In this document: one piece after another, positions 31,300-37,854 of the stretch
Numbering within the stretch: the first letter of the stretch is position 1
Layout of the letters: each line of letters starts with the position of its first letter
NCBI RefSeq assembly: GCF_016863035.1
Contig: NZ_BOOC01000029.1
Span: 62,001-126,000, forward strand
Length of the DNA: 64,000 nt
Source: Microbispora corallina
GTDB lineage: Bacteria; Actinomycetota; Actinomycetes; Streptosporangiales; Streptosporangiaceae
Direction of reading: 5' to 3'
The notes under the pieces: generated by a model
Seen by the model: the letters and a program-made list of their open reading frames with translations, nothing else
Told to the model about the DNA's origin: nothing
Database searches by the model: none
Program-made: the position numbers and the translations under genes

Positions 31300-32010
31300 G
31301 TGGACAAGCGGGTGGTCGTCGTGGACGACGACGACATCAGCCGCAACGGCGTCGCCGTGATCCTCACCGGTGTGCCGGGGCTGCGCCTGGTCGCGGCTCT
31401 CACCCACGAGGACGCGGCCGGGTGGGGCGGGCGCTGGCGCGACGCCGACGTGGTGCTGGTCGACGCGGCCGACGAGCGGCGTGAGGGGGACCAGTTCCCC
31501 GGCGTCGCCGTCGTCGAGCAGGTGCGGCGGCACCGCCCCCAGGCGCTGGTGATCGTCTTCACCGGCCACTTCTTCGACGGCGCCGTACGGCGGCGCATGC
31601 GGGAGGCCGGGGCCGACCTGTTCTTCCACCGCGGCGAGCTGGCCGAGGCCGCCACGCTCCGCGCCGTCGTGCTGGGCGGCACGGGCCGCCCGGTCCCCGG
31701 TCCGGAGGACCCCGAGGAGGAGATCCGGCACGGCGTGTCCCGGCGGAGCACGGTGAACGCCGCCGTGTCGCACGCGATGGCCGCGGACCTCCCCGGACGG
31801 CTGGCCGAGCGGCGCAACCCCCGGTCACGGGCCTGGGAGCGGCTGCGGCGGGAGTTCAACCGGCATGCCGGGCTGCACGCGATGACCTGCGACGGCCGCG
31901 CGCCCGACCGGGAGCAGGACCTGCCCTCACTCCCGCAGATCGCCCGCTTCCTGCGCTGGGCGACCCGGGTGAAGTCGCCCTACCCCGGCCGCCTCGACGG
32001 CCGCGGCTGA
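31300..32010 (+). CDS. Atypical response-regulator-like protein
   Basis: This 236-residue protein has an N-terminal receiver domain: acidic pocket VVVVDDDDIS (residues 5-14), phospho-acceptor Asp55 in VVLVDAADE and Thr88 in VIVFTGHFF. The usual switch lysine is replaced by His110/Arg111 (FFHRGEL). The C-terminal ~90 residues (AWERLRREFNRHAGLHAM, then PSLPQIARFLRWATRVKSPY) do not match a standard LuxR or OmpR DNA-binding domain that I can recognise. The start is GTG 31300. It is followed after 18 bases by a large membrane protein, probably its partner. Gene reality is clear; DNA binding is uncertain. Confidence 0.75.
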   Translation: MDKRVVVVDDDDISRNGVAVILTGVPGLRLVAALTHEDAAGWGGRWRDADVVLVDAADERREGDQFPGVAVVEQVRRHRPQALVIVFTGHFFDGAVRRRMREAGADLFFHRGELAEAATLRAVVLGGTGRPVPGPEDPEEEIRHGVSRRSTVNAAVSHAMAADLPGRLAERRNPRSRAWERLRREFNRHAGLHAMTCDGRAPDREQDLPSLPQIARFLRWATRVKSPYPGRLDGRG

Positions 32011-32028: not shown

Positions 32029-33804
32029 ATGGCGGGGCTTCCGGCGTTCACCGAGGTCGCGGCGCGCTCGGCCACCTTCGCCTCGCACCGGTTCCTGCTG
32101 AACCTGCGGATCTCGTCCCGGCTGACGTGCACGACGGCGCTCCTGCTGCGCAGGCCGGCCGCGCCGCACGTCGTGATCGCCGCCGCCGCCCTCTTCGTCG
32201 CCTACGACGTGGCCCTGTTCTGCGTCCTGCGCCGGGGCGTGCCGGTGCCGCACCGCCTGCGGCTCGCGGCGGACGCCGCCGACGCCGCCGGCTGGTCCGC
32301 CGCGCTCGTGTCCCCGCTCGCGCCCGCGGCGCTGATCGTGGCGCCCCTCGCGATGGAGGCCGCCCTGTGGCGGGGGTGGCGGGCCCTCGCCGTACCGGCC
32401 CTGTCCGGTTCGGCGACCGTGGCGGCGCTGCTGGCCCTCCAAGGCCGGACCGGCGGACCGCTCACCGTGCTCCCCGCCTTCGCCCTGCCCGCGTTGGGGA
32501 TGCTCGGCGGGCTGCTGCTCAGCCGGTACCTGCAGGGCCGGGTGCACGAGCGGCTGCGGCAGGCGGAGGCGGAGCGGCAGGCCGCCGCCGGACGGGCCGA
32601 GCTGGCCGGACGGCACAGCGTCGCGGTGGGCGCGGACACCGCGCTCGACGTGCTGACCCGGACCTGGCCGCTGCTGGCCGTGCCGGGCGAGCCGATCGGC
32701 TTCCCCCTGGCGGCGTGGCGGCACGCGCTGGCCGAGCGGACCGCGGACCAGGCCGACTACCTGGGCACCGCGCTGCTGCGCTGGGAGCAGCGGCACAACA
32801 TGGCCCACGCGGAGCTGCGCCGGGACGTGGAGTTCGCGGTCGCCCGGGAGGCGGCTCCGCTGCTGATCTCGCCCTCGCAGCTGGCCGCGCTGGACGGGGC
32901 GCTGGCCGGTCTGGGGCTGCGCGGACGGGTGCCGGTGTCCGTCCGGACACCGCGGCCCCTCGGGCATCCGCAGGTGCTGGCCGTCGGGCCCCACCGGGTG
33001 GAACTGCCCCAGGACCCCCTGTCGCGGGTGCCGCCGTTCGACCCGGGGCCGATGGTGATCGCGATCGGCGGGATCGGGTCGCTCACCCACGCGCTGCGCG
33101 AGATGGACGGCGTGCCGCTGCCCGTCGCCGCCTGCCTGACGGCGGTGGCCCTGCTGGTGAGCCTCTGGGCGCACCGGCAGATCGCCGCGCGCGGCAGCGC
33201 CGCCCGGCCCCGGGTCCTCGCCGCCTGCCTCGCCTTCGGCGCGCTCGACGCCGTGGTATCCACGGCCACGATGACGACGCTCCGCGCGGGCGGCATCACC
33301 CGGCAGCCGTACCTGCACTTCCTGCTGTTCGCCGGGCCGACGGCGACGATGTACCTGCGGGACCTGTCGTGGCGGTGGCGAACCGGGGCGCTGTCGGCCG
33401 CCGGCGCAGTCCTGGCCGTGTCGGTCGCGCTGCTGTCCGTCCCGTTGTCGCCGGCGGACGCGCTGGGCCTGCTGTGGCCGCTGGCGTTCACCGTCGGCGC
33501 CTCCAGCCTGCGCGACCTGCTCGACGAGGAGAACCTCGCGTTCGGCGACGTCATCGAGCGGGAGCACGACAGGGCGGTGGCCGAGGGGTTCCGGCGGGGG
33601 CGGGAGGAGGTGCTCCGGCTGGTGGAGTCCTCGGCGGCGCAGGCGCGGGACCGGCTGCGCCGCCGCCGGGACCTCATCGACCCGGTGTTCCTGCCGGAGA
33701 TCGAGCGCCGCCTCGACCATGTCGGGCGCTGCCTCGCCGACCTGCGGTCGCGGTCACAGGGAGGCGGGCGCTCGCCGGGCTCACGGACTCCCCCGCCACG
33801 GTGA
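32029..33804 (+). CDS. Large membrane protein, putative sensor partner of the response regulator
   Basis: I do not recognise the family. The 591-residue protein has two membrane blocks. The first, about residues 45-165, has four to five helices; the second, about residues 360-500, has about five. Between them lies a cytoplasmic coiled region (RVHERLRQAEAERQAAAGRA) and a mixed domain. A C-terminal helical tail with GFRRGREEVLRLVESSAAQA follows. I see no HATPase N or G boxes and no clear DHp histidine. So if it signals to the adjacent receiver protein, it does so unconventionally or as a pseudokinase. ATG 32029 lies 18 bases after the regulator. Its last 131 bases overlap the end of the convergent mauE-like gene. 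Confidence 0.65.
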   Translation: MAGLPAFTEVAARSATFASHRFLLNLRISSRLTCTTALLLRRPAAPHVVIAAAALFVAYDVALFCVLRRGVPVPHRLRLAADAADAAGWSAALVSPLAPAALIVAPLAMEAALWRGWRALAVPALSGSATVAALLALQGRTGGPLTVLPAFALPALGMLGGLLLSRYLQGRVHERLRQAEAERQAAAGRAELAGRHSVAVGADTALDVLTRTWPLLAVPGEPIGFPLAAWRHALAERTADQADYLGTALLRWEQRHNMAHAELRRDVEFAVAREAAPLLISPSQLAALDGALAGLGLRGRVPVSVRTPRPLGHPQVLAVGPHRVELPQDPLSRVPPFDPGPMVIAIGGIGSLTHALREMDGVPLPVAACLTAVALLVSLWAHRQIAARGSAARPRVLAACLAFGALDAVVSTATMTTLRAGGITRQPYLHFLLFAGPTATMYLRDLSWRWRTGALSAAGAVLAVSVALLSVPLSPADALGLLWPLAFTVGASSLRDLLDEENLAFGDVIEREHDRAVAEGFRRGREEVLRLVESSAAQARDRLRRRRDLIDPVFLPEIERRLDHVGRCLADLRSRSQGGGRSPGSRTPPPR

Positions 33805-34312
33805 GCCCGGCGAGCACGGCCAGGAGGCGCTCCCCGCCCACCAGCAGGGCCGCCGCCGCCGCGCCGGCCAGGCCGCAGGCCGCCACCTCCCCGGCGTCAC
33901 GGGGCGCGGCCGCGCCGCCCGCCGCGGCCGCCACGCCCACGGCCAGCAGCAGGACGCCGTTGCGGACCAGGTGCCACGGGCCGACCGGTGACCGCGCGCC
34001 GCCGAAGCAGGCGCAGCCCCGGCGGGTGCCTCGCCGTACGGCCAGGGCCAGGGCCGGGGTGAACGCGGCCAGCAGCGCTCCGGCCGCCGCGAGCCCGTAG
34101 GGCGCGGTCCCGCCGGACGGCAGCGCCAGGGCCGTCGCGGCCTCCGCCGCCGCGATGAGCGCGGCCGCCGCAGAGGAGAGCCGGGTGCCGGGGACCCGCC
34201 CGATCTCCCGGACGGCGGCGGCGAACGCCGAGGGGTGTCGTGCCTTGCCCGCCACGGCCGCCGCGAAGACCAGCGACAGGGCGATCCTCAGCGACAGCGC
34301 CAGGTATCCCAT
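33674..34312 (-). CDS. MauE/DoxX-type redox-associated membrane protein
   Basis: This membrane protein of about 212 residues has four to five helices and belongs to the MauE/DoxX group. MauE assists disulfide formation in methylamine dehydrogenase. The signature is YLALSLRIALSLVFAAAVAG followed by GKARHPSAFAAAVREIG, and the CxC of RRGCACFGG (Cys100, Cys102). ATG 34312 has AGGAGG five bases upstream; GTG 34315 is possible. It overlaps the S26 peptidase stop by one base. It is the last gene of the peptide operon. Its job is probably to pass electrons or disulfides to the six-cysteine peptide together with the MauD-like protein. The C-terminal 130 bases overlap the opposite-strand sensor gene. 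Confidence 0.82.
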   Translation of the reverse strand: MGYLALSLRIALSLVFAAAVAGKARHPSAFAAAVREIGRVPGTRLSSAAAALIAAAEAATALALPSGGTAPYGLAAAGALLAAFTPALALAVRRGTRRGCACFGGARSPVGPWHLVRNGVLLLAVGVAAAAGGAAAPRDAGEVAACGLAGAAAAALLVGGERLLAVLAGLTVAGESVSPASARLPVTATAGRRGSARHGRGGARSPAGTPGR

Positions 34313-34860
34313 CACGGCCTCCTTCCCGCCGTCCCGGCTCGCCGCACGAGCACGCCGACGACCACGCCGGCCACAGCCGACACGGGCACCAGCCCCCAGG
34401 TCCGGGAGTCGGCGCTCGACTCCGCGTCCCCGAACACCACGAGGCGGCCGGGAGGCACCCGCCCGGCGCCCACCGCGGCCCGTGCGGCCTCCGGGACGGG
34501 GTCCCCGCCGACTGCCACGACCCTCTTCACCAGGTACGGCCTGACCTGCGGCGGCGCGATCGCCCAGCCCGGCGGGGGCAGGAACACCACGGCGCGTCCC
34601 CGTACGGGCGGCAGCCGGGCCGCGAGCAGGCGGTCGCCGTCGCGGTAGGCGGGGGCCATGCTGCTGCCCCGCACGGTGACGACCACAAGGAGCCGGCGCG
34701 CGAGTGCGGCCGTGAGCACGAGGGCAAGCACGACGGCGGGCACGAGGATGGGCGCGGCGGCGGGCACGAGAGTCGGCCCCAGAGTGGGCACGACGGCGAG
34801 CACGACGATGGGCACGACGATGGGCGCCGTCGCGGCGAGGGCCGCGGGCAGAGCGGTCAC
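34312..34860 (-). CDS. S26 family signal peptidase
   Basis: This membrane-bound type I signal peptidase homologue has about 182 residues. An extended hydrophobic Val/Pro/Ala-rich N-terminus (about residues 10-60, two helices) anchors it. The catalytic serine lies in VRGSSMAPAY (Ser67) and the lysine in YLVKRVVAVGGD (Lys112), followed by FGDAESSADSRTWG, all canonical. The start is GTG 34860 with GAGGAGG five bases upstream. It lies directly after the small peptide gene, so it is the likely protease that removes the peptide's leader. It is small and separate from housekeeping lepB genes, which fits a dedicated role. Confidence 0.88.
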   Translation of the reverse strand: MTALPAALAATAPIVVPIVVLAVVPTLGPTLVPAAAPILVPAVVLALVLTAALARRLLVVVTVRGSSMAPAYRDGDRLLAARLPPVRGRAVVFLPPPGWAIAPPQVRPYLVKRVVAVGGDPVPEAARAAVGAGRVPPGRLVVFGDAESSADSRTWGLVPVSAVAGVVVGVLVRRAGTAGRRP

Positions 34861-34882
34861 GACGTCCTCCTCTCCCCCGGTT

Positions 34883-34910
34883 CCGGCCGGAGGCAGGGGC
34901 CTCCGGCCGG
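34883..34910 (-). terminator. Hairpin between precursor peptide and peptidase genes
   Basis: CCGGCCGGAGGC (34883-34894) pairs perfectly with GCCTCCGGCCGG (34899-34910) around an AGGG loop. It lies 16 bases past the peptide stop and 22 bases before the peptidase start. It could be a partial terminator or RNA-stabilising end that raises precursor mRNA over downstream genes. Confidence 0.75.
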
Positions 34911-34925
34911 GCGGGGACGGCCGGT

Positions 34926-35111
34926 CTACTGGCAGTAGTGACTGACGGAGACCCAGTCGCCGGAGCAGGCGTGCCCGCACCAGGTGGTGAAGCACGAGCG
35001 GCCGGGAGCGATGACGTTCTGCTCGGTGTAGCAGTAGTAGTCGCCGCAGTGGTAGGCGCGGGCCTCCACGGACGGCAGGACGCGGGTCAGCAGTGCGCGC
35101 AGGGCGGACAT
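34926..35111 (-). CDS. Six-cysteine precursor peptide (candidate new secreted peptide)
   Basis: This 61-residue peptide is the likely product of the operon. Residues 1-19 form a short, weakly amphipathic leader (MSALRALLTRVLPSVEARA) ending in Ala17-Arg18-Ala19, a type I signal peptidase A-x-A site. The predicted core of 42 residues has six cysteines at 22, 27, 40, 45, 49 and 60, enough for three disulfides. It is rich in Tyr, His, Trp, Ser and Thr, with the block SCFTTWCGHACSG. The leader lacks the long hydrophobic core of a Sec signal, so the ABC exporter is the likely route. The start is ATG 35111 with AAGGAGG four bases upstream, the strongest ribosome binding site here. I know no matching family. 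Confidence 0.8.
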   Translation of the reverse strand: MSALRALLTRVLPSVEARAYHCGDYYCYTEQNVIAPGRSCFTTWCGHACSGDWVSVSHYCQ

Positions 35112-35169
35112 GGTTCCTCCTTCGGGTTGCGGATGTGTTCTGCGGTCTCGGTGCCTAGGACTGGCGGGC

Positions 35170-37032
35170 TCACCTCCCTCCGGCGGCCGACGGCACCTGG
35201 CGGTCCCGGTAGCCGCCCGCCTGCAGCGCGAACAGGCGGGCGTAGACGCCGCCGAGATCGATCAGGGCGGCGTGGGTGCCGCGTTCGGCGACCCGGCCGC
35301 CGTCCAGGACGACGATCTCGTCGGCGTCCCGGAGCGCGTTGAGGCGGTGCGAGACGAGCAGCGCCGCCCGGCCGCGGCTCAGCTCCATCAGCCGCTCGTG
35401 CAGGGCGTGCTCGGCCTCGGGGTCGAGGCCGGCGCTGGGCTCGTCGAGGATCATGAGGTCGGCGCCGGACCGCAGGAACGCCCGGGCGACCGCCACCCGC
35501 TGCCACTGACCTCCCGACAGCTGGGCGGCGTCGCGGTCGTCCATCCCGGCGAAGACCCTGCTCAGCAGCGTGTCGTAGCCGCGCGGCAGGGCCGCCAGCG
35601 CCTCGTCGATCCCCGCCGCGCGGGCCGCGCGGCGGACCGCCTCGAGGTCGTCCAGGGCGTCGAGCCGGCCGGCCCCGACGTTCTCCCGGGCCGTCAGGTC
35701 GTAGGCCACGAAGTCCTGGAAGACGGCCGTCACCCGGGACCGCAGATCGGCGGCGTGGGCCTCCCTGACGTCCCGGCCGTCCCACAGGACGGCGCCGCGC
35801 TCCGGCTCGTACATCCGGCACAGCAGCTTGACCAGCGTGCTCTTGCCCGCCCCGTTCACACCGACGAGGCCGATCCGCGCGCCGCGCGGGATGACGAGGT
35901 CGACGCCGCGCAGCACCCAGGGCGCGCCCTCGCCGTACCGGAACCACACGTCCCGCAGTTCGACGGCGCGGCGCAGGGGCGCGAGGGGGGCGGAACCGGC
36001 CGGCGGGCCGGCGGGCGGCTCCTCGATGATCTCGCGGTACGCGCCGAAGAGCAGCAGCGCCTTGTACGCCCCCGCGACCCCGTCGGTCGCCGTCGTCGCC
36101 GCTCCATAGACACCCGTCAGGGCGGCGAGGAACAGCGCCACGTCGCCGAGCGTGATCCGCCCGGCCGCCGCCTGGGCGGCCGCGGTGACAACGCCCGCGA
36201 CCGTGACGGCCCCGGCCAGCAGCTCAAGGCCGGTGTGGGTGCGGGTCAGCCGCCGTTCCAGGCGACCCTCGGCGTCGCTCGCCGCCCGGGCCTCGGCCAG
36301 CATCCGCTCACGCAGGAAGTGCCCAAGGCCGAACAGCCTGATCTCCTTGGCCGCGCCGACGTCGGTCAGCAGCATCTGGTACGTCACCTCGCGCCGGACC
36401 AGCGGCGACAGCCGTACGGTGAGGGCGGCCCTGCGCCGGCCGGCCCCGGTCTGCAGAATCGCGGCGGGCACGGCCCCGGCGAGGACCACGAGCACGCTCG
36501 GCGGCCAGACCATCACGAGCGTGGCGAGGAATCCGGTTCCCTGGACGGCCGCGCGGATCAGCCCGACGGCCGAGCGGGTGAGCTCTCCGGGCGCCTGGCC
36601 GCCCGCCTGGGTGGCCAGGCGGAGCCGGTCGAGGTACGCGGGACTCTCCAGCCGGTCGAGCCCGACGTGCTCGTTGATCCTGCGGAACAGCCGGTCCGCC
36701 GCGACGAGCCTGGCCGACCGGGCCAGCGTCCCGGACAGGTAGGACGCGACCCCGCGGTGCGCCCCGGACAGCAGGCCGGCGGCCGCGAGACCTGCGGCGG
36801 CGACCGCCACCCGGCCCGTGTTCCCGGCCGGGCCGCCGGCCAGCGCGTCGATGAGCCGCTTGGTGAACCAGGCGGACACCGGCGGGAGCAGCCCCTCCAG
36901 CACCGCCAGCGCGAGGACGACCAGAGCCGGGCCGCGCCCGGCGGCGAGCCCCAGGCGGGCGGCGGCCGCGGCGGCGCGCGCCAGATCGCGCGGGGTCCCC
37001 GCCGTCCGGCCGTCCCGGCGGACGGCCCTCAC
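35170..37032 (-). CDS. ABC exporter, fused membrane and ATPase domains
   Basis: This 620-residue type I ABC half-exporter has a membrane domain of about six helices to residue ~330 and a nucleotide-binding domain thereafter. The latter has Walker A VGVNGAGKSTLVKLL, signature LSGGQWQRVAVA, Walker B LMILDEPSAGLDPEAE and switch LLVSHRLNALRDAD. There is no N-terminal C39 peptidase domain, so leader removal needs a separate protease, which the operon supplies (S26). GTG 37032 overlaps the stop of the thioredoxin-like gene (GTGA). It lies 58 bases upstream of the peptide gene and is its likely exporter. Confidence 0.92.
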   Translation of the reverse strand: MRAVRRDGRTAGTPRDLARAAAAAARLGLAAGRGPALVVLALAVLEGLLPPVSAWFTKRLIDALAGGPAGNTGRVAVAAAGLAAAGLLSGAHRGVASYLSGTLARSARLVAADRLFRRINEHVGLDRLESPAYLDRLRLATQAGGQAPGELTRSAVGLIRAAVQGTGFLATLVMVWPPSVLVVLAGAVPAAILQTGAGRRRAALTVRLSPLVRREVTYQMLLTDVGAAKEIRLFGLGHFLRERMLAEARAASDAEGRLERRLTRTHTGLELLAGAVTVAGVVTAAAQAAAGRITLGDVALFLAALTGVYGAATTATDGVAGAYKALLLFGAYREIIEEPPAGPPAGSAPLAPLRRAVELRDVWFRYGEGAPWVLRGVDLVIPRGARIGLVGVNGAGKSTLVKLLCRMYEPERGAVLWDGRDVREAHAADLRSRVTAVFQDFVAYDLTARENVGAGRLDALDDLEAVRRAARAAGIDEALAALPRGYDTLLSRVFAGMDDRDAAQLSGGQWQRVAVARAFLRSGADLMILDEPSAGLDPEAEHALHERLMELSRGRAALLVSHRLNALRDADEIVVLDGGRVAERGTHAALIDLGGVYARLFALQAGGYRDRQVPSAAGGR

Positions 37033-37568
37033 CGCACCGCCTCCAGGCCGGCCTGGGCGAGGCCGTGACCGGCGCGCCGGACCCGGCCCTCCGACACGAC
37101 CAGGACGGTGGGGAAGGCCGTGACGCCGAGGGCGTCCGCGAGCGGATGCCTCCCGTCGGCGTCCGCTACGTGCGCGACCGGGGCGAAGTCCCGCACGTGT
37201 ACGGCACGCCCGGCCGCGCCGCCGGAGACGACCACGAGCGGCCTCGGCGCGCCGGCCGGCAGGGCGGCGAGCGCGCGGCGCAGCCCGCCGGCGAGCTCCT
37301 CGCAGGCGGGGCAGTCGGTGGTGAGGAAGGCGAGGACGCGCTCGTCCTCGCCCCGCTCCGCCAGGTCGACGACGGCGCCGTCGACTGTGACCACCCGTGT
37401 CGGCGGCACCGGTGTGCCGGCCTCGGGCAGGACGGGGCCGCGGGCGGTGCGGCGGGAGACCACCTCGTACAGGTCCCGGCAGCGCCGGACGGCCAGCAGG
37501 GCGACGGCGAGGGCGGCGAGCGCGAGGAGGGCGCCCAGCACCGTGACGGTCCACAGCAGCGCGTTCAT
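37029..37568 (-). CDS. MauD/TlpA-type membrane-anchored thioredoxin-like protein
   Basis: This 179-residue protein has one N-terminal membrane anchor (about residues 5-27) and an extracytoplasmic thioredoxin fold. The active site is FLTTDCPACEELAGGL with Cys86 and Cys89 (CPAC), and the cis-proline lies in LGVTAFPTVLVVSEG. MauD, its nearest named relative, works with MauE in disulfide formation of a cysteine-rich enzyme subunit. Here the target is likely the six-cysteine peptide. ATG 37568 has GAGGA seven bases upstream; the frame is open further up without conserved sequence. It is the first gene of the leftward operon. Confidence 0.87.
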   Translation of the reverse strand: MNALLWTVTVLGALLALAALAVALLAVRRCRDLYEVVSRRTARGPVLPEAGTPVPPTRVVTVDGAVVDLAERGEDERVLAFLTTDCPACEELAGGLRRALAALPAGAPRPLVVVSGGAAGRAVHVRDFAPVAHVADADGRHPLADALGVTAFPTVLVVSEGRVRRAGHGLAQAGLEAVR

Positions 37569-37760: not shown

Positions 37761-37825
37761 CGGGGAAGCACGGAGCACCGGAAACACGGAGCCCGGGAAA
37801 CATTCAGCCCGGGAAGCACGGAAGG
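37761..37825. repeat. Four tandem imperfect 16-bp repeats
   Basis: Four head-to-tail units of 16-17 bases begin at 37761, 37778, 37794 and 37810, with approximate consensus CCGGGAAACACGGAGC. They lie about 190-255 bases upstream of the first gene of the peptide operon and just beyond rbpA. They resemble iteron-like protein binding sites, but no binding factor is known. Confidence 0.7.
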
Positions 37826-37854
37826 CCCTCCCCGGAGATCCGGGAAGGGCCTTC
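37821..37854 (-). terminator. rbpA terminator hairpin
   Basis: GAAGGCCCT (37821-37829) pairs with AGGGCCTTC (37846-37854), extended by an inner CCCGG/CCGGG stem, 28 bases past the rbpA stop. Confidence 0.7.

Follow-up and report, generated by a model that had tools for sequence, protein, structure and literature searches.

A MauE-, MauD-, ABC- and S26-encoding cassette of Microbispora corallina that probably forms a disulfide-rich ribosomal peptide

Gene organization of the locus

The window, a stretch of 64,000 nucleotides from the genome of Microbispora corallina, carries on its minus strand five consecutive genes, which code for a thioredoxin, an ABC exporter, a 61-aa precursor peptide, an S26 signal-peptidase-like protein and MauE, in this order (Table 1). 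All five open reading frames named in the initial annotation were present, including the CPAC and CxC motifs, the six-cysteine peptide and an exporter without peptidase. The Pfam scan of the window yielded MauE (3e-23), Peptidase_S26 (4.5e-18) and ABC_tran (3e-29), and no C39 peptidase domain was found in the exporter. The match of the thioredoxin to Redoxin (1e-3) remained below the cut-off; a profile of the family thioredoxin scored the protein at 6e-45, with the window protein being part of the alignment from which the profile was built.

Table 1 Features of the cassette and its surroundings, in positions of the window
Feature	Position	Strand	Description
MauD/ResA-like membrane-anchored thioredoxin	37029..37568	-	179 aa with the active-site motif CPAC; proposed to oxidize or isomerize the core peptide
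ABC exporter with its membrane domain fused to the ATPase domain, without C39 peptidase domain	35170..37032	-	620 aa; proposed precursor exporter
Precursor peptide gene	34926..35111	-	61 aa, six Cys, Shine-Dalgarno sequence AAGGAGG
Leader of the precursor	35055..35111	-	19 aa, MSALRALLTRVLPSVEARA, C-terminal end AxA (A-R-A; ...VEARA)
Predicted mature core	34929..35054	-	42 aa with six Cys spaced as C-x4-C-x12-C-x4-C-x3-C-x10-C; three-stranded beta fold predicted
12-bp hairpin directly 3' of the precursor stop codon	34883..34910	-	folding of a 76-nt stretch, z -2.2
S26 signal-peptidase-like protein	34312..34860	-	182 aa with an intact Ser/Lys dyad (GSSM serine, KR lysine); proposed leader peptidase
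MauE (MauE/DoxX) membrane redox protein	33674..34312	-	CxC; proposed electron acceptor of the thioredoxin
15-bp hairpin between rbpA and the operon	37821..37854	-	z -4.1; likely rbpA terminator
Receiver-domain (response-regulator-like) protein	31300..32010	+	possible regulator, association only
591-aa protein, partner of the receiver protein	32029..33804	+	possible sensor, association only

The operon is flanked by rbpA-secG-tpiA-pgk-gap on one side and by a receiver/sensor-like gene pair and an amidohydrolase gene on the other. Stop/start overlaps, which had been taken as a sign of a single operon, exist at two of the four junctions (thioredoxin/ABC and S26/MauE), but not on either side of the precursor gene, which is set off by gaps of approximately 58 and 65 nt, the second of them containing a strong hairpin. 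The 15-bp hairpin parts the operon from rbpA, so that the five genes probably represent a transcription unit of their own.

Across the family, hairpins with z<-2 were located downstream of 49% of 72 precursor genes, compared to 10% upstream. Hairpins following a precursor gene are a feature of operons in which the precursor is needed in excess, and the hairpin may possibly serve as an attenuator which raises the amount of precursor over that of the downstream gene products.

A receiver/sensor-like pair adjoins the cassette in the window and at two further loci, L062 and L068. Pairs of this kind were also encountered without a cassette, at L150-L152 beside rbpA and at L153. The pair was considered as a part of the system and discarded, given its occurrence beside rbpA in the absence of the cassette. 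Six of the 121 family genomes encode the 591-aa protein, which had no match in Pfam. Regulators of the BTAD/NB-ARC/TPR or HTH/NB-ARC type are encoded in many cassette loci from L063 to L142 (e.g. L063:9604-12762), with one regulator sequence cluster covering 37 loci.

The precursor peptide

By comparative evidence, the 61-aa precursor is a real gene, because it possesses the Shine-Dalgarno sequence AAGGAGG, a copy with 70% identity resides in the same operon of a genome of the same genus (G032, L062), nonsynonymous changes are less frequent than synonymous ones (dN 0.26 vs dS 0.53, dN/dS about 0.5) and relatives adjoin the same genes at more than 70 other loci. Apart from chance hits, the precursors were not recognized by any model of Pfam or NCBIfam, and a meaningful PDB sequence match was absent for the window precursor as well as for the core group with adjacent cysteines (CC-type). 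A search of the genome contigs with the 61-aa precursor as query returned nothing because the core is too variable, and MauE was therefore taken as bait.

The leaders of the family are free of cysteine and end with a proline and an AxA motif near the terminus; by the cut used they comprise 19-30 aa, mostly 19-26. In the leader alignment (A1), P13 and A19 were invariant. The alanine at position -1 is imposed by the cut, and most members of this alignment were found with a motif requiring P13/A19. The same leader ending was seen in members identified by eye or by profile in the set of loci anchored on the ABC exporter (see below). The window leader scored 27.6 with the leader profile, to whose training set it belongs.

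Downstream of the leader, the core is hypervariable across the family and contains 4-12 cysteines. All but two of the 49 non-redundant precursors have them in even number (47 of 49, p 4e-12). This parity points towards internal disulfides, since pairing fits an even count and metal binding does not require one; this inference is drawn from residue counts. In the CC-type group, the six cysteines are the sole invariant columns of the core. Mean identity was 26% in the core outside the paired cysteines, as opposed to 43% in the leader, and the cores are rich in aromatic residues (14%). For the window core, the predicted monoisotopic mass is 4789.87 Da with three disulfides and 4795.92 Da in the reduced state; for the same-genus strain G032, a mature mass of 4634.89 Da is predicted.

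For the window precursor, AlphaFold2 predicted a low-confidence helix in the leader and a three-stranded core. A CC-type core was likewise predicted with three strands, and the pLDDT values of the predicted cores were around 90. Fold searches with the predicted cores retrieved unrelated low-scoring matches only and no specific PDB match. The C-C-CC-C-C spacing of knottins is present in many relatives and not in the window (4-12-4-3-10, without CC). A relation to the knottins rests on the spacing pattern alone, and the fold searches were uninformative.

Distribution and co-occurrence of the cassette genes

Loci were collected by searching 299 genomes from the order for MauE and by scanning named genomes with a MauE pattern. 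This MauE-anchored set consisted of 82 loci and the window, 83 in total, and includes a few genomes that were reached by both routes. Genes for ABC exporter, S26 peptidase, thioredoxin, MauE and precursor were found together within 6.5 kb in 64 of the 83 loci. The small open reading frame is hence conserved beside this gene set, and the lack of conservation that the initial annotation had named as a refutation is not seen. The gene order of the window was confirmed as annotated, but differs from that of most relatives, in which the usual order is precursor-MauE-thioredoxin-ABC-S26. The window ABC exporter was 43-73% identical to the exporters of related cassettes. All co-occurrence tallies are unweighted for shared ancestry.

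Seventeen leaders served to build a leader profile, which was applied with a threshold score of 10. It gave 70 matches within 4.5 kb of MauE, of which 69 were cysteine-rich, and none farther away with a score of at least 10; the matches include some training sequences and near-identical copies of them. The cysteine-free match, at L110, is probably not a precursor. The family ABC exporter was present in 67 loci, and a precursor was recognized in all of these, in 65 by the profile and in the other two (L077, L109) by eye. Precursors were absent from eight of nine MauE loci that lacked both ABC exporter and S26 peptidase; the ninth, L091, has a precursor and lies on a contig that breaks off about 1 kb beyond MauE. 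Five loci (L083, L090, L098, L099 and L123) combine precursor, S26 and thioredoxin without a family ABC exporter within 6.5 kb. Among these, L099 stops near a contig end and the ABC gene of L123 is situated just beyond the 6.5-kb limit.

The cassette occurs in Actinomycetota and Myxococcota, with Microbispora, Nonomuraea, Actinomadura, Streptomyces, Embleya, Kribbella, Dactylosporangium, Nocardiopsis, Nocardia and Streptosporangium among the named hosts. The two Myxococcota assemblies (L109, L143) have short precursors with cores of 5-6 cysteines. Many genomes harbor several different cassettes, and that of the window holds two more with different precursors (contigs C20 and C32 of G000; L063 and L064). 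On the megaplasmid of Streptomyces clavuligerus (L160:6126-6618), two tandem precursors annotated as 'hypothetical protein' share closely similar 24-aa leaders and contain six cysteines each. Their mature forms, with three disulfides each, have predicted monoisotopic masses of 4913.22 and 4797.03 Da.

The catalytic and redox-active residues of the cassette proteins are conserved. Ser67 and Lys112 of the S26 protein (window numbering) were invariant in 44/44 family members, the CxxC motif and the cis-proline of the thioredoxin in 31/31 and the CxC motif of MauE in 62/62, together with the invariant MauE residues E57, R117 and N118. ResA-type thiol-disulfide proteins were the closest solved relatives of the family thioredoxin, with the member from L065 as query.

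The S26 peptidase and the AxA site

An independent set of loci was obtained with the window ABC exporter instead of MauE and scanned with the same leader profile. An AxA precursor was found in 15 of the 16 loci with S26 nearby and in none of the five without it (Fisher p 3e-4). The exception, L195, has ABC exporter, S26 and MauE and no recognized precursor. In three of the five S26-less loci (L188, L189, L192), a short open reading frame with eight cysteines adjoins the ABC and MauE genes, and its leader (...VFAP[VT][SI]A[VML]R[DE]C) is devoid of AxA; a thioredoxin-like match was observed at these loci as well. The S26 peptidase thus appears linked to the AxA site by correlation, because in these three loci the peptidase and its presumed site are absent together. 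All three belong to one genus, and the joint absence may go back to a single evolutionary event. An FtsX-type permease gene adjoins L188 and L189; at L192, a gene for a separate ABC ATPase lies alongside.

Proposed pathway and alternative explanations

We propose, with a probability of roughly 0.77, that the product of the operon is a ribosomal peptide, rich in disulfides and secreted, which is made by a route through the ABC exporter, the MauD-like thioredoxin, MauE and the S26 peptidase. The short amphipathic leader, which judged by hydropathy lacks the hydrophobic core of a Sec signal, would deliver the precursor to the ABC exporter. On the extracytoplasmic side of the membrane, the thioredoxin, itself membrane-anchored, would introduce three disulfides into the 42-aa core and hand the electrons to MauE, and the dedicated S26 peptidase would cleave after the leader-terminal A-R-A. 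This corresponds to the sequence of export, Mau-type oxidation and cleavage inferred in the initial annotation, which gains comparative support, and comparative support only, from co-occurrence, invariant residues, cysteine parity, the AxA leader end and the lack of AxA in three loci without S26.

The data show the gene set, its conservation and co-occurrence, the intact catalytic residues, the division into leader and core, the cysteine parity and the correlation of S26 with AxA. It is inferred in which direction electrons flow, in which order the steps take place and what the product does, and no step has been shown biochemically. Co-occurrence is no proof of step order, and MauE and MauD could reduce or isomerize disulfides instead of forming them. 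The five loci without a family ABC exporter within 6.5 kb and L195 without a recognized precursor also count against the model.

The mature peptide is probably either an antimicrobial directed at other organisms or a signal; this activity is inferred, and no product has been observed. An antibacterial role is weakened because no conserved immunity gene was found among the recurrent cassette neighbours. The same absence would suit a peptide that is matured along the identical route and addresses the kin of the producer rather than competitors, as would the receiver/sensor-like genes at three loci. We regard this as a real possibility, though the less likely one, in view of the hypervariable cores, the several different cassettes in many genomes, the existence of the receiver/sensor pair apart from the cassette and the nearby BTAD regulators, which are common in antibiotic clusters.

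Alternatively, the peptide might leave the cell through Sec by means of an ordinary signal peptide, with the S26 protein as its signal peptidase and the ABC exporter carrying other cargo. The AxA end of the leader matches the consensus of type I signal peptidases, and S26 is a signal peptidase family. The leader, however, has no long hydrophobic stretch and contains charged residues in its middle; its best 10-aa Kyte-Doolittle mean is 1.40 in the window, and the family median is 1.16. Such a weakly hydrophobic leader seems unsuited as a typical Sec signal, an assessment based on hydropathy alone without signal-peptide prediction. As a precursor is moreover encoded at nearly every locus with family ABC exporter and S26, Sec export is judged improbable.

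Slightly poorer still are the prospects of an explanation in which the cysteines bind metal or carry electrons, as in metallothioneins or redox carriers, and are kept reduced by MauD and MauE. Some cores are indeed very cysteine-rich, with up to 12 residues, and the thioredoxin resembles ResA, which acts as a reductant in cytochrome c maturation. Against this, the cysteine spacing differs between groups, even counts are favoured by disulfide pairing and unnecessary for metal binding, and the cores are hypervariable and aromatic-rich. A role of the genes in the maturation of methylamine dehydrogenase or of some other extracytoplasmic enzyme, with the short open reading frame unrelated, can be practically discounted despite the MauD and MauE homologues, as the short frame is conserved beside these genes with a shared leader; mauA and mauB queries had no match in the window genome, and since the control queries were silent too, the absence of these subunits is unproven.

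Relation to known systems

A cassette of this kind is only in part new. decRiPPter, whose filter required transporter, peptidase and regulator genes, reported from Streptomyces three candidate RiPP families that contain mauE, in one case together with mauD, and the authors proposed that the Mau proteins modify RiPP precursors (2020; PMC7794033). These families share with the window cassette MauE (in one case with MauD), a cysteine-rich predicted precursor, a transporter and a peptidase. They differ in their precursors, which have at least 8 cysteines and were confined to Streptomyces, whereas the window precursor has six and its relatives 4-12; the main text deals with them in a single paragraph and works out no pathway (PMC7794033). 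The initial description of the system as undescribed is hence too broad, but the present analysis contributes the leader, the link between S26 and AxA, the distribution and the cysteine parity. Searches of the literature on cystine knots, disulfide-rich RiPPs, MauE and fulvocin yielded no other precedent for RiPPs of the MauE type, and a 2023 review of RiPP leader proteases leaves signal peptidases unmentioned.

The TMcin bacteriocins of staphylococci are similar in having a ribosomal precursor, leader removal by a membrane protease, a dedicated oxidoreductase (TmcD, CPHC) and ABC secretion (PMC13252029). They are distinguished by a single disulfide, a product that forms a transmembrane helix, the S2P-type protease TmcP, separate ABC subunits, a DsbA-type oxidant and an escort protein (PMC13252029); no homology with the window cassette is claimed. 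With MauD and MauE of methylamine dehydrogenase maturation in Paracoccus, the cassette has in common the MauE family (Pfam PF07291) and a membrane-anchored thioredoxin partner. The presumed substrate in the window is instead a 61-aa precursor, accompanied by ABC exporter and S26 peptidase, and the cassette does not encode a structural subunit.

Double-glycine bacteriocins and lantibiotics with C39-type ABC exporters also combine a leader and core precursor with a dedicated ABC exporter, whereas the window cassette has no GG site, C39 domain or modifying enzyme and has an AxA leader and a separate S26 protein. Glycocins such as sublancin are disulfide-bonded ribosomal peptides with thiol oxidoreductases encoded in the cluster. 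The cassette differs from them in its oxidoreductases and leader and in the lack of a glycosyltransferase. Laterosporulin, a defensin-like bacteriocin, is likewise a small cysteine-rich peptide and appeared with Z 2.7 in a weak structural list; it is leaderless, and the structural resemblance lies within noise.

Implications

The cassette is unnamed but widespread among bacteria. It appears to serve the production of small cysteine-rich peptides, with their oxidation, trimming and export, and these may be antibiotics or signals. As a hypothesis on a defined family, the pathway is well supported by genome comparison, without biochemical demonstration. We incline, with some reserve, to the wider view of a large class with hypervariable core and constant leader, oxidative folding by MauD and MauE and an S26-type cut after Sec-free ABC export, in which some members may be cystine knots.

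A genome-mining lead that so far occupied one paragraph would thereby become a defined system whose leader, protease site and oxidation machinery are amenable to testing. The combination of a cysteine-free AxA leader and an even-cysteine core with MauE, MauD, ABC exporter and S26 offers a simple search rule which finds precursors labelled as hypothetical proteins, the tandem pair of Streptomyces clavuligerus among them. Bacterial disulfide-rich scaffolds from a dedicated folding line would also serve peptide engineering.
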